A stretch of 38,795 nucleotides of DNA from Candidatus Competibacteraceae bacterium (GTDB taxonomy: Bacteria; Pseudomonadota; Gammaproteobacteria; Competibacterales; Competibacteraceae): positions 1 through 38,795 of the forward strand of contig JAGRHQ010000010.1 in NCBI GenBank assembly GCA_020444905.1, written 5' to 3'. A program made the position numbers and the translations under genes. This document shows, one piece after another, positions 11,993 to 22,381 of the stretch (position 1 is the stretch's first letter; each line of letters starts with the position of its first letter). Under the pieces are notes generated by a model, which saw nothing but the letters and a program-made list of their open reading frames with translations, did no database searches and was not told the DNA's origin.

Positions 11993-14221
11993 TTATTCCA
12001 CCGACACATCGAAGCCGGATCGTTCGATCTGACTGCGGGTCACCAGCGGAATCGAGCTCTCATACGTCCGCCGCAGCCGCCGACTGACCCGCGCCTGCAA
12101 TTGCGCGGATCCCGATGCGGCGTTGCGCACCACAAAACTTAAGGTGATTCCCGTAGTGCGATAGGCCTGCATCGCCGCATTCAACAAGCTGTCGCGGTTA
12201 ACCGTCTGACCCATGTAGCGGTTCAATACCCGTTGCACCTCATCGCGGTCCACGCCAGTAATCGAACCATCAATCTGGATCGAGCCAATTCGCCAGGCGC
12301 CTGCTTGCGAAGGTGGGGCAGGCGCTGGAGTGGGAGGGGTTGGCGGAGCCGCTGTGGCAATCCGCTCCAGACTGATCGACTCAGTCACATCGCGATTGGC
12401 GATTCGCACTGAGACCTGTTTCGTTTCGTAGCCGCTCCGACTGACCTCCACCGTGTACTCACCCGGCGGCAGGCGCACCCCTGGACGGTAGGTAAACGAA
12501 GAGTTGACCAACCGCACGCGCGCCCGCGACGGATCGGTGCGCACGGTCAACCGATAGGTGGCCGGTTCGGGCGGTTGAACCGGCGCGACCGGCTGCGGCG
12601 GTTCAACCGGCGCGACCGGCTCCGGTTCCTTAATCAGCGTTACCGGTACGATCACGTCAGCATTGGCAATGCGCACGGTCAACCGCTGGGTTTGATAACC
12701 GGAGCGGGAGACCTCTACCGTGTAGCTACCCGACTCTAATGCGATGCCGGGTTGATAGCGAGGCTTGATCCCCAGCAACCGGACCTGGGCATTAGCGGGA
12801 TCAGTTCGCAGCGTGAGCCGATAGGATGGCGGTGGTTCTGGTTCAGGCGTCTTGATTAACGTCACCGGCATCGTCACATCCGCGTTGATGATACGCACCG
12901 TGAGCACCTGGGTTTCGTAGCCCGATCGGGAAATCTCCACCGTATAGTTGCCAGACTCTAATTGAAGGCCTGGCTCATAGCGGGGTTTGATATTCAGTAT
13001 GCGAATTTGCGCATTGGATGGATCGGGACGAACAGTCAGCCGATAGAGCGTCGGTTTCTCCGGTTCAGGCAATTTCACGAGCTTTACCGGCATGGTCACA
13101 TCGCTATTAATGATCTTGACCGGCGCCTTCAAAGATTCGTAGCCGTCCGCGCTGACCTCCACCGTGTACTCGCCAGGCGGCAACTCTATGCCGGGTTGGT
13201 AGGGGGTCTTTACGTTCAGCAACCGAATCGTTGCTTGAGCAGGATCGGTCTGCACGGTCAGATGATACTGTTCTGGCGGCGGTGGCGGCGGTGGCGGCGG
13301 TGGTTGTTTTTCCAGCTTCACCGGCACGGTCAGGTCACTATTAGCAATCTGCACCGGCACTTTGCGCGAGACGTAGCCTTCACGCGCAACTTCGATCTCA
13401 TAGTTGCCCGGTGCCAGTGGCATCCCCGGTTGATAAGCGCCTGGAACGCCCAACAGCCGAATCGCCGCGTCCGCAGGCTCTGGGCGAACCGTTAAACCAT
13501 GTTTGGTTTTTTCCAGTTCGACATCGATGGCTACGTCACGGTCCTCAATCCTGACGCTTTTCCGGCTTGCGGCATAACCGGTCTGGCCGATTTCAATTTC
13601 ATAATTTCCCGGTGGCAGCCGCACGCCGGGCTGATAAGGAATTGGACTGTTCAGCAAGCGAACGCTGGCCTCAGCCGGTTGGGTCCTGACCGTTAACCGG
13701 TAGGTCTGCGGCGGTTCCGGCGGCATCGTGATCATCGCCGCCAGTTCGTTGACCTTGATTTGAATGGTATCGATATTCCGGCCCTGGATCTGGCCGCTGC
13801 GCAACAAGGAAGCAGTGCGGGTGTCGATCAGCCGCGCTGTGACAGTGATCAGGTCCCCCAGTTTGTTGACTGCGCCGGTGACTACTGCGTCCACGCCATA
13901 GCGCCGGCCCAATTCAGCCGCAGTTTTTGGATCGAGCAAACCCGTGGAGCCGAGTTCCTGCTGTTTAGCGATCTTGGCCGCCGCCGACAACGCTAACCGG
14001 TCCTTGAGGGTGAAGCGTCCGGTATTGGCGAGCGCCGACATCATCAAGTCGGCAAGGATGGCGCCGGCCTGTTCATGCAGATCGCCCCGAACGCTGAACT
14101 CGATCACCGTGGCGGTCATCTTCGCTTCGGGCGTTCCAGAAGCGGCCTGCGCCAGATGGAACGGTAACCAACCAATTAACATCCATACCAGCATCAGTCC
14201 TTTCAACAGGATTTTGCTCAT
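11993..14221 (-). CDS. Secreted protein: CsgG/FlgO-like domain, six PEGA repeats, POTRA-like C-terminus
   Basis: A 742-residue exported protein. A signal peptide occupies about residues 1-26 (cleavage after LAQA). Residues about 36-165 resemble the CsgG/FlgO family (DAVVTGAVNKLGDLITVTAR). Six PEGA repeats follow at about 174-238, 242-304, 319-383, 393-457, 467-531 and 556-620, each with a YRLTVRTDP-like opening and a PGxYTVEVSRSGYET-like core. Linkers are rich in Pro and Glu, including ten consecutive prolines at 307-316. The C-terminus (about 643-712, WRIGSIQIDGSITGVDRDEV) looks like a POTRA-type domain. GAGGA lies 6 nt before the ATG, and the gene starts 9 nt after the kinase stop, so it is the third gene of the kinase operon. 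It probably acts in the periplasm or outer envelope as an output or sensor; the exact role is unknown. Confidence 0.85.
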   Translation of the reverse strand: MSKILLKGLMLVWMLIGWLPFHLAQAASGTPEAKMTATVIEFSVRGDLHEQAGAILADLMMSALANTGRFTLKDRLALSAAAKIAKQQELGSTGLLDPKTAAELGRRYGVDAVVTGAVNKLGDLITVTARLIDTRTASLLRSGQIQGRNIDTIQIKVNELAAMITMPPEPPQTYRLTVRTQPAEASVRLLNSPIPYQPGVRLPPGNYEIEIGQTGYAASRKSVRIEDRDVAIDVELEKTKHGLTVRPEPADAAIRLLGVPGAYQPGMPLAPGNYEIEVAREGYVSRKVPVQIANSDLTVPVKLEKQPPPPPPPPPPEQYHLTVQTDPAQATIRLLNVKTPYQPGIELPPGEYTVEVSADGYESLKAPVKIINSDVTMPVKLVKLPEPEKPTLYRLTVRPDPSNAQIRILNIKPRYEPGLQLESGNYTVEISRSGYETQVLTVRIINADVTMPVTLIKTPEPEPPPSYRLTLRTDPANAQVRLLGIKPRYQPGIALESGSYTVEVSRSGYQTQRLTVRIANADVIVPVTLIKEPEPVAPVEPPQPVAPVQPPEPATYRLTVRTDPSRARVRLVNSSFTYRPGVRLPPGEYTVEVSRSGYETKQVSVRIANRDVTESISLERIATAAPPTPPTPAPAPPSQAGAWRIGSIQIDGSITGVDRDEVQRVLNRYMGQTVNRDSLLNAAMQAYRTTGITLSFVVRNAASGSAQLQARVSRRLRRTYESSIPLVTRSQIERSGFDVSVE

Positions 14222-14230
14222 GGCGCTTCC

Positions 14231-16231
14231 TCAATTCTTCCCCAACCAGGGTTCCAGCACCAGACGAAATCCGATGTCGGATCGCCATTTCCCATACTCC
14301 GGAGCAGCAGGGAACCGATAGGCGAACCGCACCAGTCCCGGATAATCAGACCAGGATCCCCCGCGCAGCACACGGCGTCCGGCAGATGAGACGCCCTCAT
14401 CGGCGCACCGGGTTTCACCCCCGGCGTAGTTGTTGTCATAGTCGGAACAGGTCCATTCTGCAACATTGCCCAGCATATCGTACAAGCCAAAGGCGTTGGC
14501 CGCGTACTGACCGACCGGCGCCGCCGCCGCTTGCTGATCTTCACAGGGATAATTGGCCCAGTTAAAAGGCTTGGCCTGGCGCGCAGTTTCGTCATAGATA
14601 TTGGCGTAACGGCATGCCTGGTTTGGATCATTACCCCAGTATCGGGAACCAGTCTGACCGGCGCGCGCGGCGTATTCCCATTCTGCTTCGGTCGGCAGGC
14701 GATAGCGCAGACCGGTTTTTTCCGACAACCAGTTCGCAAAGGCGACCGTCTCCTGCCAACTCACGCGAACCACCGGCTGGTCCGGTGCATTCAGCGTGTA
14801 GGATTCATAAACGCCGCTGTCGTGATCACTCTGAAATTTTCGATATTGACCATTGGTCACTTCGGTTTTGCCCATCCAGAATCCCTTCGGGCAAATCTGA
14901 TGCAGCATTTCATTGGCGCTGCGATCCGGCTCGGTTTCGGGACTGCCCATGTTGAAACATCCAGGGGGAATCCAGATAAATTCGATTCCTGTCAAGGGAT
15001 CAGTATAAGTTTGACCGGCTTTGGGATTGGTGGACGGCCCATTTTTCACCGATTCAGCCGGTGGAGTCTCAGCCGGTGGTTGTTCAATCCGCGGTGGCTG
15101 TGGCGAAGGCGTTGGGGTCCACGTCAGCCAAAGACCGCCTCCGATAGCTGTCACGATGACGAACGTCAACCCACCGATCGCCAGCCAGCGCCGGCTTCCT
15201 CCCTTGGGTGAAACCGGCATCGGAGAGGGCTTCGAACCCGATTCATCGATAGCCGATCGCAGCTTGTCGCCGCCGCGGTGTAATTCCGAACGCAGCGGCA
15301 ACTCCAGTTTGACCGTGCATTCTTCCTCTGCTTCGAGGGGCGTTTCCAGCATCGCCCGCATTTGGCTGATGGTCTGAAAGCGCTTCTCGGGACGAACTGC
15401 AATCGAGCGGTCGATCGAGCGCAGCAATGCCGAACTGTAACGTCCGGCGGCGACTTCCTCCGCCGGTTGCAGTGGATCGTCGAGGACGCGCGCCGGCGCT
15501 TCAATCGGCGCTGCGCCGGTCACGCAATGATATAAAACCGTACCCAGCGCATAAATGTCCGTCCAGGGACCATAACCCCGGCCATCAATCAGGTATTGCT
15601 CAATGGGCGAATAGCCAGGCGAGAAGACGCTGGTGATGCTCTTGCTGCGCCGGCCCAGCGCTTGGCGGGCCGCGCCGAAATCAATCAGGATGGTTCGTCC
15701 ATCCGAACGGCAATAAAGATTGGCTGGCTTCAAATCGCGGTGCAGGTAACCCTGGGCATGGACGGCGTCCAAAGCCGGCAGCACGTCGTCAACCAGTCGG
15801 CGCACCCGTTCTTCCGAAAGGGTTTTCTCCCGTTGAAGAATCTGGCTGAGCGGCTCGCCATCGACATAATCCATCACAATATAAGCCGTGCCATTAGCCT
15901 GGAAGTAGTCCTGCACCCGCACCACGCCGGGATGTTCAACGCGCACCAGGGTTTGCGCTTCGTTGAGAAAGCGTTCCAGACCCCAAGTGTAGCAGGCGTC
16001 CTCACCCGCCTCGGAAGTAGGCAGTCCGCCCTGGGTATTGGCCAGAACATGGTCACCATCCCGATAGGACCATTCCACCGGGAAATATTCCTTGATAGCG
16101 ACCCGTTTGAGCAATGCTTCATGCACCGCCATGTAAGTAATCCCAAACCCACCCGCGCCCAGCACCGCTTCAATACGGTATTTGTCAAGTAGGCGATAAC
16201 CAATGGATAGCGTGTTGGATTTTTTGATCAT
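14231..16231 (-). CDS. Membrane Ser/Thr protein kinase with extracytoplasmic FGE-sulfatase-fold domain
   Basis: A 666-residue Hanks-type kinase (670 if the GTG at 16243, directly after the upstream TGA, is used). I prefer the ATG at 16231. Numbered from the GTG, kinase motifs are complete: glycine loop 29-34 (GAGGFG), Lys51 in VAIKEYFP, His168-Arg169-Asp170 with Lys172 and Asn175 in HRDLKPANLY, and Asp188 in IDFGAARQ. One membrane segment at about 352-374 leads to a Pro-rich linker and an FGE-sulfatase domain at about 409-665 (EFIWIPPGCFNMGSP, RLPTEAEWEYAARAG, LGNVAEWTCSDYD, LRGGSWSDYPG). The two catalytic Cys of true formylglycine enzymes are Asp and Val here, so it is probably a binding module. 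The kinase should be cytoplasmic and the FGE fold periplasmic. Confidence 0.92.
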   Translation of the reverse strand: MIKKSNTLSIGYRLLDKYRIEAVLGAGGFGITYMAVHEALLKRVAIKEYFPVEWSYRDGDHVLANTQGGLPTSEAGEDACYTWGLERFLNEAQTLVRVEHPGVVRVQDYFQANGTAYIVMDYVDGEPLSQILQREKTLSEERVRRLVDDVLPALDAVHAQGYLHRDLKPANLYCRSDGRTILIDFGAARQALGRRSKSITSVFSPGYSPIEQYLIDGRGYGPWTDIYALGTVLYHCVTGAAPIEAPARVLDDPLQPAEEVAAGRYSSALLRSIDRSIAVRPEKRFQTISQMRAMLETPLEAEEECTVKLELPLRSELHRGGDKLRSAIDESGSKPSPMPVSPKGGSRRWLAIGGLTFVIVTAIGGGLWLTWTPTPSPQPPRIEQPPAETPPAESVKNGPSTNPKAGQTYTDPLTGIEFIWIPPGCFNMGSPETEPDRSANEMLHQICPKGFWMGKTEVTNGQYRKFQSDHDSGVYESYTLNAPDQPVVRVSWQETVAFANWLSEKTGLRYRLPTEAEWEYAARAGQTGSRYWGNDPNQACRYANIYDETARQAKPFNWANYPCEDQQAAAAPVGQYAANAFGLYDMLGNVAEWTCSDYDNNYAGGETRCADEGVSSAGRRVLRGGSWSDYPGLVRFAYRFPAAPEYGKWRSDIGFRLVLEPWLGKN

Positions 16232-16243
16232 GACGCAAACCAC

Positions 16244-18955
16244 TCAGGGCAATTCCCGAACCAGCCTGAATCCCAGGAAATAGTCCTGGAAATCGAACCG
16301 ACTCCGGTGCCGATCCGCTGAACGCACATTGCGCGGTTCGTCGCTCCAGGAACCACCGCGCACCACAATCTCTTGTTCCCCAAAAGGTTCCTGGCAGCGT
16401 TGAATCGGCGCTTTCGATTCCTTGTCATAGACTGAACAGGTCCATTCCAATACATTGCCCGCCATGTCGTACAAACCAAAATCATTACTCCGATAGCTGC
16501 CAACCGGCGCTGTATAGACTTGGCCGTCGTGACACTGCATCACTGTCCAGCCTACGAAAATCTTTTTACCATCCAGATCCGCCGCATTGGCAAAGGCGCA
16601 CCCTTCATCCGGATCATCGCCCCAATAGCGGCTGGTCGTCGTCCCGGCGCGCGCTGCGTACTCCCATTCCGCTTCAGTGGGCAAGCGATAGCGCTGGCCG
16701 GTTTCCGCGGACAGCCAATCCGCATAAGCCGTGGCGTCCGCCCAGCTCACATTGATGATGGGCCGCCGACCACGCCCCCATTCGTGATCATTCGGTAACG
16801 GCTTACCTTTTGCTGAAGTAAATCGTTCGTATTCGTAAAACATCACTTCATACTTGCCGATAGCAAATGGTTTGGCGATACGGACCGGGTGGGAAGGTTC
16901 GTCGTTGTAGCGGCCCGTTTCCGAAGAGGGCGATCCCATCTGAAATTGGCCCGCGGGAATCACGACCATCTCTGGCCCCTGCGAACCATCGCTCAGCCGG
17001 TCGCGCAGCACGGGATTAGCAGGGGCTAACCGGGCCAGCGCCGCTTCTGCTTCTGCGCGGTGCTGGCAATCTGCCGCACAACGCTCAAGGTAGGCCCAAT
17101 AAGCGTGGCGGGTATCGGCGCGCCGGGCGGCGGCAAAGGCCTCGGCATCGGTCTGCCTGATCCGCTCTGCGGCCTCGGCTTGTTTCAGCGCCTGCTTCAA
17201 CGCCGCCAATTCGGGCAGATCCGGAGATGCTGACTCTGCTTTTTTCAACCACTGACGGGCTTTGCCAGGATCGGATTTATTAAGACTCATCAGCGCTATT
17301 TTGGCCCAACTGCGCGCCAGCCGTTTTCGTCCCGCGGCGACTGCGGGATCATCAGGCGCCAGCTTCGCCAAGGCTTCCAAACGGGACAGAGCTTCATCGC
17401 TTCGCCCCTCGTGGCCTTCTTCCAGCGCCGAGACCAGTATCTGGAAGTCGGTCTTGAGCGCTTCCACCTTTTTCCGGGTTTCCAGATTTTGAATAGCGGC
17501 TCGCGCTTCCTTCCCATAGCCGCACAGCGGACAGCGCTGCAGATAAAGTCGATAAGCAGCAACGGTATCGACCCGTTGCGCGGCTTCGAAAGCGCGCAAG
17601 TCCGTCTCGCGTTCAGCTTCCTGTAATAACGCGCCTTCCTCGGCCGGTATCTCATCCCCCTGGGTTTCCGCAGAAGAAGCAATCTTGTCGGGTTCAACTT
17701 GCAGCGCCTCGGAAGTGGCGTCGATTCCAGGTTCGACGGGTTTCCGTAATCCATAAACCCCCAAACCGATTGCCAGGGCTAGCCCTGCCGCGAGTCCCCA
17801 TACCCATTTAGGCAATGGACCACGGCTTGATGGTGTCGCTATTGCCGGTCGCTGGACGGCATCCAGGTTTTGGATGAACTGGCCGGCGTCCATCGGGCAC
17901 AGCTCGCTGGGATAAGCCAATCCCCGTCGCAAAAGTTGCCAGGCATCATCGGTCAATCCAGGCGGCCGCGGCGCAGCGCCTGGCGACGCGCCCTGGGCTT
18001 CATGGATGCCTCGTCCCTGCAGCAAGTGGTAAATCAGTAACGCCAGCGCAAAAACATCACGGCGAAAGGCTGTTTCGGTGGCCACGGCTTCATTCCCTTC
18101 GCCAGCGGTTTCGCGTCCCGCCCCCCCAGTGCTGAACAAGACGCTACGCGGTTCGCGGATTTCCGTCGCCAGACCAAAGCCCAGCAGTTTGACCGCACCC
18201 TGATCGGTGACAAAGATCGTATCGGCATCAAGATGCTGGCAGGCGAATCGATGCTCATGGCGCGCGTAATCCAGAGCGGCAGCCACGGGGCGCAACCATT
18301 TAGCGATCATTTCCCAGGACAAGCCATGTTGTCCTTCCTGGTCGAGCCATTGCGCCAGGGTGCGGCCTTGGCGGGGATCAACATAGTCCATCTCGGCGAA
18401 TGGCCAGCCATCGGCGCCTTGGCGCCATCCGTATGTGCGGGCGATGGAGGGGTGGTCCAACTTGCTGGCCAATTCCACCCGCGCTCTGATCTTGGCGAGG
18501 TAGGAGCGCAGGCCGATCAAATCCGCTCGTGACGCCCGTTCATCGCGCTCTGCCTCGCGTGAGCCGGTCTCATAGCCAGTGGGCAGGAAGAGCTTGATGG
18601 CCCGGAATTCATCCGTTGCGCCATGACTCTCTGATGCTGGCGTAATAACGCGCGCCAACCAGACGCGTCGCTTACCGCTGAGATCATGCACGAGTCGCAT
18701 TGATCGCTCTGGGGGGCCAATGATCCTTCCGATCTCCAGGACTTCCGAAGCGACAGATCCGGGAGAAGGATGCTTTTCCTGCGCGGTTTCCTGGAGAGTG
18801 TTTACCTCCAAATCGCCGACTGACGATTGTGGATCCTGGTCATCCTCGTTCATGGTGCGCAAAGCTTCTTCCTGGAGGCGCGCCAACTCGGTCTCGTTCA
18901 ACCGACCGGCGGCATAAGCTTGCGCAAGTTCCTCAAGACGCATTTCGATATCCAT
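16244..18955 (-). CDS. Membrane pseudokinase with FGE-sulfatase-fold domain
   Basis: A 903-residue protein, first gene of the kinase operon. Residues about 85-362 have a kinase-like fold: the ATP-anchoring Lys121 survives in FRAIKLFLP, and the hinge region reads FAEMDYVDP. There is no glycine-rich loop, the catalytic loop reads ACQHLDADTIFV instead of HRDLKPANIL, and DFG is GFG (Gly259). I therefore call it a pseudokinase. A membrane segment lies at about 384-403. The middle has two copies of an Ala-rich motif with DT..AY..YL..C (about 455-491 and 605-642) separated by helical sequence. The FGE-type domain is at about 663-902 and lacks both catalytic Cys (VRGGSWSDEPRNV). Its TGA abuts the next gene. 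It may regulate the neighbouring active kinase. Confidence 0.88.
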   Translation of the reverse strand: MDIEMRLEELAQAYAAGRLNETELARLQEEALRTMNEDDQDPQSSVGDLEVNTLQETAQEKHPSPGSVASEVLEIGRIIGPPERSMRLVHDLSGKRRVWLARVITPASESHGATDEFRAIKLFLPTGYETGSREAERDERASRADLIGLRSYLAKIRARVELASKLDHPSIARTYGWRQGADGWPFAEMDYVDPRQGRTLAQWLDQEGQHGLSWEMIAKWLRPVAAALDYARHEHRFACQHLDADTIFVTDQGAVKLLGFGLATEIREPRSVLFSTGGAGRETAGEGNEAVATETAFRRDVFALALLIYHLLQGRGIHEAQGASPGAAPRPPGLTDDAWQLLRRGLAYPSELCPMDAGQFIQNLDAVQRPAIATPSSRGPLPKWVWGLAAGLALAIGLGVYGLRKPVEPGIDATSEALQVEPDKIASSAETQGDEIPAEEGALLQEAERETDLRAFEAAQRVDTVAAYRLYLQRCPLCGYGKEARAAIQNLETRKKVEALKTDFQILVSALEEGHEGRSDEALSRLEALAKLAPDDPAVAAGRKRLARSWAKIALMSLNKSDPGKARQWLKKAESASPDLPELAALKQALKQAEAAERIRQTDAEAFAAARRADTRHAYWAYLERCAADCQHRAEAEAALARLAPANPVLRDRLSDGSQGPEMVVIPAGQFQMGSPSSETGRYNDEPSHPVRIAKPFAIGKYEVMFYEYERFTSAKGKPLPNDHEWGRGRRPIINVSWADATAYADWLSAETGQRYRLPTEAEWEYAARAGTTTSRYWGDDPDEGCAFANAADLDGKKIFVGWTVMQCHDGQVYTAPVGSYRSNDFGLYDMAGNVLEWTCSVYDKESKAPIQRCQEPFGEQEIVVRGGSWSDEPRNVRSADRHRSRFDFQDYFLGFRLVRELP

Positions 18956-19015
18956 AAGCCATCCAATTGTCAGATGGTTCCAAAAGATTTATTTGGATTA
19001 ACAGCCGTAAGACGA

Positions 19016-19043
19016 ATTATGATCTAGTCTAGCAGAAGGACAA
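19016..19043 (-). promoter_or_regulatory. Sigma70-type promoter for the pseudokinase-kinase-PEGA operon
   Basis: On the minus strand, TTGTCC (4 of 6 to the -35 consensus, 19043-19038) and CATAAT (5 of 6 to the -10, 19021-19016) are separated by 16 bp. The -10 ends 61 bp before the operon's first ATG. It lies in the 195-bp divergent region shared with the PPM phosphatase gene. Confidence 0.55.
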
Positions 19044-19150
19044 AACGCGGGGGCGCCTATTCATCAGCAAGCTAACAGCGCTGAAAGGTTCGAACCGCGC
19101 CGACTTTTGAGGCTTGACGCCTGTTACTTTCGACCATGATCTGACCACCG

Positions 19151-20158
19151 ATGCACACTGACCACCATCCATCTCTCACTCACGCGGGATCGACATCCCC
19201 TGCAACATCCCGTTGTCGTGGTCCCCGGCTGGAAATCGCCTTGCGCTCGATATGCTCGCCGACAGGGCAGGGACGTCACGAAAATCAGGATAACTTTTTA
19301 CTCATCAATAGCCGGGGACGCGCCCGGTTTCTCTGGAACGAAAAGGATGCCCAATTGCAACTGCCTGACTGGCCCCATGGACATCGGCGAATCGCGGTGC
19401 TCGATGGAATGGGGGGTCATAGCCACGGACGGGAAGCCGCTGAAAAAACCGTTGAGGGCTTGCTAGAATTATCTGCAGTTACCGACCTGGCGCAACTATC
19501 CAATGAATTAAATATTCTGCACCGGCGACTTTACCAGGAATTTCGGACCGCCGGGTTAGAAACTGGTTGCACACTCATTCTTCTGGAAATCCCGCCCCGT
19601 TCCCCGGCAATGTTGTTCCATGTGGGCGATTCGCGCATGTACGCCATCGACTCGCGCAATGTTCAGTGTCTGACAGTGGATCATGTGCCGGCCACGCATC
19701 TAGCCATATTGGGCCTGTTGGACGGCGCTCAATGGTTGCAACAGGTGCATGTCCAAACCAGTTCGCAAATCAGTCAGGCTTTTGTTTTAGGCAGCACCCT
19801 GGGTGCGACGAATTTTTATGCTGAGGCCATTGAAGAGGAACTCTATGAGCTGCACGAGGGCAATCTGCCGCTATTTCTGCACGGGTTGAACGATCGTCGT
19901 CTCTTGAGCCTGGAATCCGATCGGGTTTACCTGATCGCCAGCGATGGCCTCTGGCACTTGCGATATCCACAAGTATTTATCCAGCGCTGGCCGGTATTGC
20001 TGGCGCAACCGCATCGTCCTCTTGAGGAACTTCTTAATGAGTTGCTGGACGAATTGGCGGCGGCGATTCGGCAACAACAGCACCAACCGGATGATAACTG
20101 CACGGTGATTCTCTTACGCAAATCCAGCGAGGCCGGGGCTTCCCCTGATGAATCCTGA
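19151..20158 (+). CDS. PPM/PP2C-family protein phosphatase
   Basis: A 335-residue metal-dependent Ser/Thr phosphatase. Motifs in order are GRHENQDN (41-48, metal Asp47), VLDGMGGHSHG (Asp85), GCTLILL, FHVGDSRMY (Asp160), LIASDGLW (Asp265) and DDNCTVILL (Asp314/315). All metal-coordinating Asp residues are kept, so it should be active. No signal peptide or membrane segment is seen, so it is cytoplasmic. It is divergent from the kinase operon and is the obvious phosphatase partner of that kinase. Insertions at about 60-75 and 195-245 make it somewhat longer than a minimal PPM domain. The start has only a weak ribosome site. Confidence 0.92.
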   Translation: MHTDHHPSLTHAGSTSPATSRCRGPRLEIALRSICSPTGQGRHENQDNFLLINSRGRARFLWNEKDAQLQLPDWPHGHRRIAVLDGMGGHSHGREAAEKTVEGLLELSAVTDLAQLSNELNILHRRLYQEFRTAGLETGCTLILLEIPPRSPAMLFHVGDSRMYAIDSRNVQCLTVDHVPATHLAILGLLDGAQWLQQVHVQTSSQISQAFVLGSTLGATNFYAEAIEEELYELHEGNLPLFLHGLNDRRLLSLESDRVYLIASDGLWHLRYPQVFIQRWPVLLAQPHRPLEELLNELLDELAAAIRQQQHQPDDNCTVILLRKSSEAGASPDES

Positions 20159-20184
20159 CCCCGATTTTAATGGAGGTCTCCCTG

Positions 20185-20613
20185 TTGAAAATTCGACATA
20201 TTCTTCTCGCATTGGTGGCCATACTGGCGATTGCGTTCATGCAACCACTGGTTTTCTTTGTGGGTGGATTGACTCTGTTATGCGGTGTCGGCGCGCTCAT
20301 CTTCCGGGATTTGTCGCCTGCGGGTCAGGATGCCGTAGAGCGCCGCGTTCTGGGTTGGCTGCGTCGGGCGCGTTCCAACCCAACGCAGGATATTGAGCTT
20401 TCGTCCGTTCGCCGCCGGTCTTCATCCCCGGACATGTCCGCCGCTGGACCGAGTCCCCCAAAATCTGAACGGATCCGTCGCGCTCGCGCCAGAACCCCTA
20501 TACTTCAAAATGATCTTGTTCCGGACATCACCGAATCGCTGACTCACGATAAAACAACGCCCAGCGCCAATCGTTATGCAAAACCCCGCCAGCAACCTGA
20601 TGAGGCGGTTTAA
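20185..20613 (+). CDS. Small membrane protein downstream of the phosphatase
   Basis: An unrecognised protein of about 142 residues. I favour the TTG at 20185 because GGAGGT at 20172-20177 lies 7 nt upstream; the in-frame ATG at 20170 overlaps that ribosome site and would leave it unused. The N-terminus is strongly hydrophobic: two close membrane segments (about residues 5-24 and 25-41) around Q20-P21. After an LSPAGQDAVERRVLGWLRRA helix, the C-terminal 85 residues are Ser/Arg/Pro-rich and look disordered. It starts 26 nt after the phosphatase stop and is probably cotranscribed. It might be a membrane anchor or phosphorylation target, but that is a guess. Confidence 0.65.
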   Translation: MKIRHILLALVAILAIAFMQPLVFFVGGLTLLCGVGALIFRDLSPAGQDAVERRVLGWLRRARSNPTQDIELSSVRRRSSSPDMSAAGPSPPKSERIRRARARTPILQNDLVPDITESLTHDKTTPSANRYAKPRQQPDEAV

Positions 20614-20925: not shown

Positions 20926-21130
20926 GGGGGACATCCTCCTATTACGCAATTGTTAAATTTTTTTACCTTAGCAAAGGCAAAGCCTGCCATTTTGGTATAC
21001 AAGTCCCTGCGTATTATTTCAATGCTATTTCAGTGTGGGCGTCAAATCAAACCCGCCCAGTTCGTTGTCAATCCTCAAGGAAAAGAGGCCAAGCGCTGCA
21101 ACGCCGCGCCTCCCCTTGATGATTCGTGGC

Positions 21131-22381
21131 ATGGATCACACCCATTGTGGGATGGCCCGCATGGCGTTGTCTGATGCAAAGCCTAAACATTGGCCCGATG
21201 GCTGGAGCCGTCTGCGCGAGGCGTTGCTCAATCCGCGCGTCGACCCGGAAAAGCTTGAAGAGGCCCTGCGCGAAGCGCGGGTGAGGCAACCACTGCCCGT
21301 CGTATGGCTGATCGGCAAAACGCAAGCCGGCAAGACCTCGATTATCCGTGCGCTCACCGGTAGCGCCGCCGCCGGGATTGGCAACGGCTTCCAACCCTGT
21401 ACCCGCACCGCCCGGTTTTATGACTTCCCCACTGAAGCCCCGGTTGTGCGCTTTCTCGATACCCGTGGTCTGGGCGAAGTCGCCTATGACCCGGCTGAGG
21501 ACATTCACTATTGTGAGTCGCAAGCGCATCTGGCGCTGGGAGTCATGAAAGTCGCCGATCTTCAGCAGGACGCGGTATTCGAGGCGCTGCGCCAAGTCCG
21601 CAAGCGCCATCCGGAATGGCCGGTGCTGATCGCTCAGACCGGTTTGCACGAAGTCTATCCGCCGGGCGCCAACCACATTTTGCCTTATCCCTATGATCAG
21701 CAACCGTGGTCGTTGCAAATTTCACATGATCTGCGCCGTGCCTTGCAGGTGCAAAGGGATCGTCTGGGAAATTTGCCGGGTTCGGCGCCGGTACGTTGGG
21801 CAGCAATCGATCTGACCTTGCCAGAGGATGGTTGGGAGCCAGTGAATTATGGGTTGGAAGCGCTCTGGACCGCGATGGGCGAAGTCTCGGCATGGGGCTT
21901 GCAAGCGCGGTTGCAAAGCGATCCCGGGGTGCGTAACGCCTACGCCCGCGCCGCGCATCCACAGATTGTCGGTTATGCGCTGGCCGCCGCCGGTATCGGC
22001 GCATTGCCGATCATCGACCTGGTTGGGGCGCCGGCGATACAGGCCAAACTGCTGCATGGCCTGGCAACCTTGTATGGACAGAATTGGGATCGTCGAACCG
22101 TTTCCGAATTTATTGGATTGTTGGGTGTGGGTGTGGGGGCCAGTTATGTCGTCCGGTCGCTCGGTCGTGAAGTGATTAAACTCATCCCAGGTTGGGGGCA
22201 GACGGCCGGAGCACTGTGGGGGGCAACCGCCAATGGGGCGACTACCTATGCCTTGGGTCAGGCGGCCAGCGCCTATTTTTTCAGGCGGCAGCGCGGTGAT
22301 CCTGTGGATGCCGAGGCCATCCGCCGCGTTTACGCCGAGGCGCTGACAAGCAGCAGGAATGTCCTGAAGTTTTTTCCGTGA
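21131..22381 (+). CDS. DUF697-type GTPase (Era-like superfamily)
   Basis: About 416 residues from the ATG at 21131. Other in-frame starts are a GTG at 21035 and ATGs at 21152 and 21161; none has a strong ribosome site. The GTPase domain has a clear P-loop (IGKTQAGKTS, 61-70), a switch II DTRGLGE (110-116) and, in place of the usual NKxD, an IAQTGLHE segment. The C-terminal third is hydrophobic (VGYALAAAGIGALPIIDLVG, then two more Gly/Ala-rich stretches), typical of DUF697, and may associate with the inner membrane. Function is unknown. It converges with the first hemerythrin gene, with only 18 bp between stops. Confidence 0.8.
   Translation: MDHTHCGMARMALSDAKPKHWPDGWSRLREALLNPRVDPEKLEEALREARVRQPLPVVWLIGKTQAGKTSIIRALTGSAAAGIGNGFQPCTRTARFYDFPTEAPVVRFLDTRGLGEVAYDPAEDIHYCESQAHLALGVMKVADLQQDAVFEALRQVRKRHPEWPVLIAQTGLHEVYPPGANHILPYPYDQQPWSLQISHDLRRALQVQRDRLGNLPGSAPVRWAAIDLTLPEDGWEPVNYGLEALWTAMGEVSAWGLQARLQSDPGVRNAYARAAHPQIVGYALAAAGIGALPIIDLVGAPAIQAKLLHGLATLYGQNWDRRTVSEFIGLLGVGVGASYVVRSLGREVIKLIPGWGQTAGALWGATANGATTYALGQAASAYFFRRQRGDPVDAEAIRRVYAEALTSSRNVLKFFP

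Follow-up and report, generated by a model that had tools for sequence, protein, structure and literature searches.

In Pseudomonas aeruginosa, the TagQRST-PpkA-PppA pathway of the H1-T6SS has an inner-membrane kinase that senses outer-membrane damage and is fed by a periplasmic protein, a lipoprotein and an ABC transporter (PMC11881912). Bacterial pseudokinases have experimentally been little explored (PMC12599244). GLW pseudokinases carry GLW in the place of HRD and have the beta3 Lys replaced by Leu or Trp (PMC12599244), CP1 and DLHK pseudokinases are devoid of a transmembrane (TM) region and have COG3899 or helicase partners (2025 review), ActPs1 and ActPs3 are mainly actinobacterial, and DYD retains HRD and/or DFG (PMC12599244; 42-family classification). 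Here we describe a locus of a Candidatus Competibacteraceae bacterium that encodes a TM kinase and a TM pseudokinase, each with a formylglycine-generating enzyme (FGE)-like domain, together with a PPM phosphatase, a small membrane protein and a secreted PEGA protein. The window, i.e. the whole stretch of DNA analysed (38,795 nucleotides), is an entire contig of a 4.0-Mb draft genome.

Results

The five genes claimed by the first-pass annotation were all found where it had placed them, with the domains and catalytic states it had assigned, and its figures for the gene junctions (0-12 nt and 9 nt) and for the 195-bp divergent gap proved right. Orthologue alignment sets the true kinase ATG at 16231, 12 nt past the pseudokinase stop. 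The features, in window coordinates, are as follows.

11993-14221, minus strand: secreted protein of 742 aa with a signal peptide, a CsgG/LpoB-like domain, PEGA repeats and a predicted C-terminal POTRA domain (Pfam, fold model, orthologues)
14231-16243 as ORF, refined to 14231-16231, minus strand: predicted active transmembrane Hanks-type Ser/Thr kinase with an extracytoplasmic FGE-like domain (Pfam, invariant catalytic residues, TM)
16232-16243, no strand: pseudokinase/kinase junction, the site of a gene cassette in relatives, scarless in the window
16244-18955, minus strand: predicted transmembrane pseudokinase with an extracytoplasmic FGE-like domain (Pfam, family-wide conservation, model)
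18956-19150, no strand: divergent intergenic region, 195 bp
19025-19037, minus strand: promoter-like 13-bp motif TTCTGCTAGACTA, probably the operon's extended -10 (conservation, near single-copy)
19151-20158, plus strand: predicted cytoplasmic PPM/PP2C-type Ser/Thr phosphatase (Pfam, invariant metal-site Asp)
20170-20613, plus strand: small membrane protein (hydrophobic hairpin; kept beside the PPM gene family-wide)

The module is adjoined by a gene for a DUF697 GTPase (21035-22381), which does not keep this position in relatives beyond the immediate vicinity compared.

The kinase matches the Pfam families Pkinase (2.8e-36) and FGE (4.9e-52), and its G-loop, VAIK (beta3 Lys), HRDxKxxN and DFG motifs are all intact in every aligned orthologue, as expected of the active Hanks-type Ser/Thr kinase that we predict it to be. 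A single TM segment (about 355-373 in ORF numbering) lies C-terminal to the kinase domain, and the juxtamembrane segment TVKLELPLR is near-invariant among orthologues. The pseudokinase matches FGE (2e-54) and, under the curated cut-off, Pkinase (1.6e-6). In nearly all orthologues HQHLDxD replaces HRDLKPEN and GFG replaces DFG, while the beta3 Lys (K121) is invariant; every genome has an intact ORF. The degenerate residues are fixed across about 55% identity, thus selection appears to maintain inactivity. The pairing of an active with an inactive kinase, proposed from the window by the earlier reading, holds at the level of residue states across the family. The pseudokinase has a single TM segment at about 385-403 and an alpha-helical repeat stalk at about 438-642; the predicted model of the full protein is weak (pLDDT 59). 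Membership in GLW was rejected, as HQH stands at the HRD position and K121 is invariant, and so was membership in CP1 or DLHK, as the protein has one TM segment and an FGE partner. By its motifs, compared with these three families through the descriptions in the 2025 review only, the pseudokinase seems to fall outside them. A lone pseudokinase relative of 41% (G001, L105 983-3790) has HRH and DFS and lies beside fatty-acid synthesis genes, outside such an operon; its residues mark it as a putative less degenerate intermediate.

In true FGEs the catalytic Cys pair follows an RGGS motif. Both FGE domains of the locus are devoid of this pair (RGGSWSDYPGLVR and RGGSWSDEPRNVR), and the identity of a formylglycine-generating enzyme was consequently rejected for both. 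The kinase FGE domain has six other Cys, all invariant, which probably form disulfides. The earlier designation "Cys-less FGE" therefore applies to the active site of both domains and fails for the kinase FGE domain as a whole. The domains are well conserved in alignments between species. Their best PDB sequence matches are FGE folds without FGE chemistry (GldK/PorK, PvdO, variable proteins of DGR), and PDB chains named as kinases (5nxl/5nyy, 7spq) also match them. As one TM segment follows each kinase domain, the FGE domains are predicted to lie outside the membrane; the single-TM topology of both kinases is thus compatible with the extracytoplasmic placement suggested before.

The PEGA protein matches PEGA (7.5e-27) and CsgG (3.3e-7) in Pfam. 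Its N-terminus is hydrophobic and it contains no Cys, thus it is not a lipoprotein. No Pfam match was found for its C-terminus; the AlphaFold2 model of this region (pLDDT 79.7) has a beta-alpha-alpha-beta-beta topology, and the fold-search matches listed were overwhelmingly POTRA proteins (BamA, FhaC, CdiB, TamA, Omp85). The best E value was moderate (0.02), the probability reached 1.0 and the identity of the hits was consistent. Fold model and BamA/FhaC-type matches hence agree with the POTRA-like C-terminus of the first-pass annotation, and we regard the region as a predicted POTRA domain. The CsgG-PEGA relatives L127 and L128 were considered as a wider form of the module and rejected, since their surroundings hold at most a generic kinase and nothing recognisable as an FGE, pseudokinase or PPM relative.

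The PPM protein matches SpoIIE/PP2C in Pfam. Its metal-binding motifs ENQDN, DGMGG, SDGLW and DDN have Asp residues invariant across the family, and the intact metal site speaks for the phosphatase activity previously ascribed to it. PPM relatives from outside the family (L103, L104) have no FGE or pseudokinase neighbours and were likewise rejected as a wider module. In the small membrane protein, the two-segment hydrophobic hairpin is conserved and the basic tail variable. In the sister genomes L065 and L070 (Contendobacter odensis, UBA2788) the PPM gene is gone from the locus and the small membrane protein stays.

Full-length pseudokinase orthologues were found in 31 of the 40 genomes of the order, all 31 belonging to Candidatus Competibacteraceae (Candidatus Competibacter, Contendobacter and other Competibacteraceae), while the other 271 of 274 sampled Gammaproteobacteria gave only generic kinase-domain matches. 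Two records labelled Phycisphaerales and Synechococcaceae (L077, L086) nest within the family tree; their bins were probably assigned wrongly. Gene order was compared between 29 named loci and the window. The divergent PPM and small membrane protein genes, followed across the gap by the pseudokinase-FGE, kinase-FGE and CsgG-PEGA-POTRA genes, were kept in this order on essentially every contig long enough, with PPM missing in L065 and L070; loss of this order in related genomes had been set beforehand as a refuting test, and across Competibacteraceae the order is kept. The flanking sides vary between genera and the core order is constant. Pairwise distances of the pseudokinase correlate with those of the kinase (r 0.96) and PPM (0.90), and with those of four cassette proteins described below (MlaE 0.89, ATPase 0.93, MCE 0.92, TPR 0.93), with 0 of 5000 permutations giving correlations as high. 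The parts thus behave as one co-inherited unit, even if, the family being small and closely related, co-conservation may partly reflect common ancestry.

The next gene beyond PEGA usually encodes a malic enzyme, in tail-to-tail orientation; in one genome a 724-aa open frame without Pfam match intervenes (L044 13874-16045). The genome of the window also has a paralogous two-gene pair of PPM and kinase-FGE (L112 4329-7982, G000:C444), which may be a simpler precursor of the window's module. A kinase-FHA-PPM module is present at L119 1420-5075 and L120 1500-4619 and, in the genome of the window, on contig C115 (L111 1757-5598). In L109 and L117 (G000:C66) a T6SS cluster has an FHA gene and a Stp1-like PPM with no kinase gene alongside. 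A role in anti-phage defence was rejected, as the kinase hit PD-T4-6 and MADS6 through generic similarity of the kinase domain and the PPM, small membrane and PEGA proteins gave no matches.

Upstream of the pseudokinase start, at a distance of 74-110 bp, the motif TTCTGCTARACTA is present at all 20 loci compared, differing by one terminal base at most. Twenty genomes have one copy each and one has two, all but one copy being at the locus. Its core TGCTAGACT resembles, and may be, an extended -10 element.

In 14 of the 29 relatives, four genes stand between the pseudokinase and the kinase, encoding an MlaE permease (8.5e-28), an ABC ATPase, an MlaD/MCE protein (7.8e-13) and a TPR lipoprotein with a lipobox-like LAAC. 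The matches remain under the NCBIfam equivalog cut-offs (MlaE 63.8 vs 212, MlaD 59.9 vs 135). The operon of the window has no MCE transporter genes, and the same is true for its whole genus; in cassette-less genomes no cassette was found elsewhere in the genome. On the pseudokinase tree, the pattern of cassette presence and absence takes six changes to explain, and four or more of these fall on branches with good support. Relics were found in three gaps, after exclusion of MlaE matches at the extreme start of several gaps, where the ORF overlaps with the pseudokinase 3' end: the TPR C-terminus in L085 (82% over 50 aa, E 1e-23) and L073 (93% over 15 aa, E 1.7e-4), and MlaE fragments with the TPR C-terminus, in unchanged orientation and order, in L059 from the genus of the window. 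These fragments imply that the cassette was lost in the three lineages, and the ancestor of the window apparently had it and then lost it. Since the insertion position is constant and the distances agree, the cassette is likely ancestral to the whole family, with repeated gain in other lineages as the alternative. The first-pass annotation, made from the window's sequence alone, missed the cassette, its relics and its loss.

Discussion

A conserved gene set with a lipid-transporter cassette in about half of the relatives probably constitutes an envelope-sensing switch of a type so far undescribed. The reading we prefer, at a probability of slightly below one in two, is a Competibacteraceae-specific transmembrane Ser/Thr phospho-switch in which kinase and pseudokinase pair through their FGE heads, PPM provides the reset and an MCE transporter is an ancestral tie. 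The two kinases would form a mixed receptor through the extracytoplasmic FGE heads, which may read the state of the envelope (damage to the outer membrane, lipids or peptidoglycan) or a ligand that the PEGA-POTRA protein, as the putative envelope link, presents to them. The pseudokinase would set kinase activity, or act as a scaffold or substrate of the kinase, and PPM would reset the phospho-state. With the cassette inside the operon in half the family, a different signal or target becomes probable for the switch. Lipid traffic via the MCE transporter may have been the original target or companion, other outputs persisting after the loss of the transporter; as the cassette is dispensable, the transporter is not the only output. 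A bolder version, in which the live and dead kinase receptor with its FGE heads governs or reads the MCE-type lipid transporter encoded between them, and the control part outlives the transporter in several lineages, is doubtful as a whole.

Unlikely, too, is a scaffold of the MviN-FhaA type, in which phosphorylation by the kinase, either of the pseudokinase or of the kinase's own juxtamembrane tail, would bring in an FHA protein, with no tuning of the kinase. Such a model has a precedent in MviN/PknB/FhaA (PMC12599244), and both the near-invariant TVKLELPLR segment and the kinase-FHA-PPM module that lies immediately past the malic enzyme in the congeneric genomes L119 and L120 would suit it; yet the locus itself has no FHA gene, and in the genome of the window the neighbouring FHA module sits on another contig. 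The mechanism in exactly the form first proposed, with FGE domains as ligand sensors, the pseudokinase as tuner, PPM as reset and PEGA as the sole envelope output, is improbable: every part is present and conserved, but it leaves out the ancestral transporter cassette, and the PEGA protein can equally be placed upstream as presenter of the signal.

We find it hardly probable that the locus serves the family's T6SS as its threonine phosphorylation pathway, the FGE head and the transporter replacing TagR and TagST. A sheath gene occurs in 37 of 39 family genomes, and in the T6SS cluster seen an FHA gene and a PPM stand with no kinase adjoining; however, that PPM is the cluster's own, T6SS genes are not linked to the module, genomes that have no pseudokinase (G022-G024, G032, G033) also possess a T6SS and the ABC part is of the MCE type. 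Membership in this pathway was rejected, there being no T6SS or FHA genes in the locus and the T6SS lying on other contigs. Finally, that unrelated neighbours were kept by vertical inheritance, with the pseudokinase as a decaying duplicate, is very improbable: the adjacent malic enzyme, also conserved without obvious functional link, would favour it, but the pseudokinase substitutions are uniform and its ORF intact in all genomes, the core order is constant while the flanks differ between genera, and the 13-bp upstream motif is conserved.

With an inactive receptor kinase beside its active twin in a conserved operon, two soluble domains suffice for a direct test of what a bacterial pseudokinase does for a kinase. 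Through the cassette and its relics, eukaryotic-type kinase signalling is tied to MCE lipid transport, and, if the bolder version is true, phospho-signalling controls how lipids move across the Gram-negative envelope. Envelope stress responses are little known in the hosts, which accumulate glycogen and live in wastewater plants.

Among known systems, TagQRST-PpkA-PppA appears to be the nearest working analogue. The locus shares with TagQRST-PpkA-PppA-Fha1 an inner-membrane kinase, a PP2C phosphatase and, in the cassette-bearing relatives, an ABC transporter and a lipoprotein. By analogy it would work alike, not as a member, since T6SS and FHA genes are unlinked and a separate PPM belongs to the T6SS of the family. 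A further common feature is the FGE fold, in TagR that of a periplasmic protein and here fused to the kinases; the pseudokinase and the CsgG-PEGA-POTRA protein are extra, and the transporter is of the MCE/Mla type and optional. FGE-fused bacterial Ser/Thr kinases (PDB 5nxl/5nyy, 7spq) also join a kinase to an FGE-fold domain, but have no known pseudokinase twin, PEGA-POTRA protein or transporter cassette. GldK/PorK, PvdO and the DGR variable proteins share the FGE fold without the Cys pair, yet are not receptor-kinase heads in such an operon. The mycobacterial MviN-PknB-FhaA system likewise partners a membrane pseudokinase with an active receptor kinase to control the envelope (PMC12599244), whereas MviN is a flippase whose beta3 and pocket are blocked, in a system without FGE, MCE or PEGA. 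With Mla/PqiB/Mce lipid transporters, the cassette of the relatives shares the MlaE permease, ATPase, MCE protein and lipoprotein, but it is embedded in a kinase operon and absent from the window. A literature search, with most subscription journals outside its scope, retrieved no paper describing the combination and, within the same limited scope, no described link between eukaryotic-type kinase signalling and MCE lipid transport. Each part of the locus is of a known kind, and the combination is apparently undescribed.
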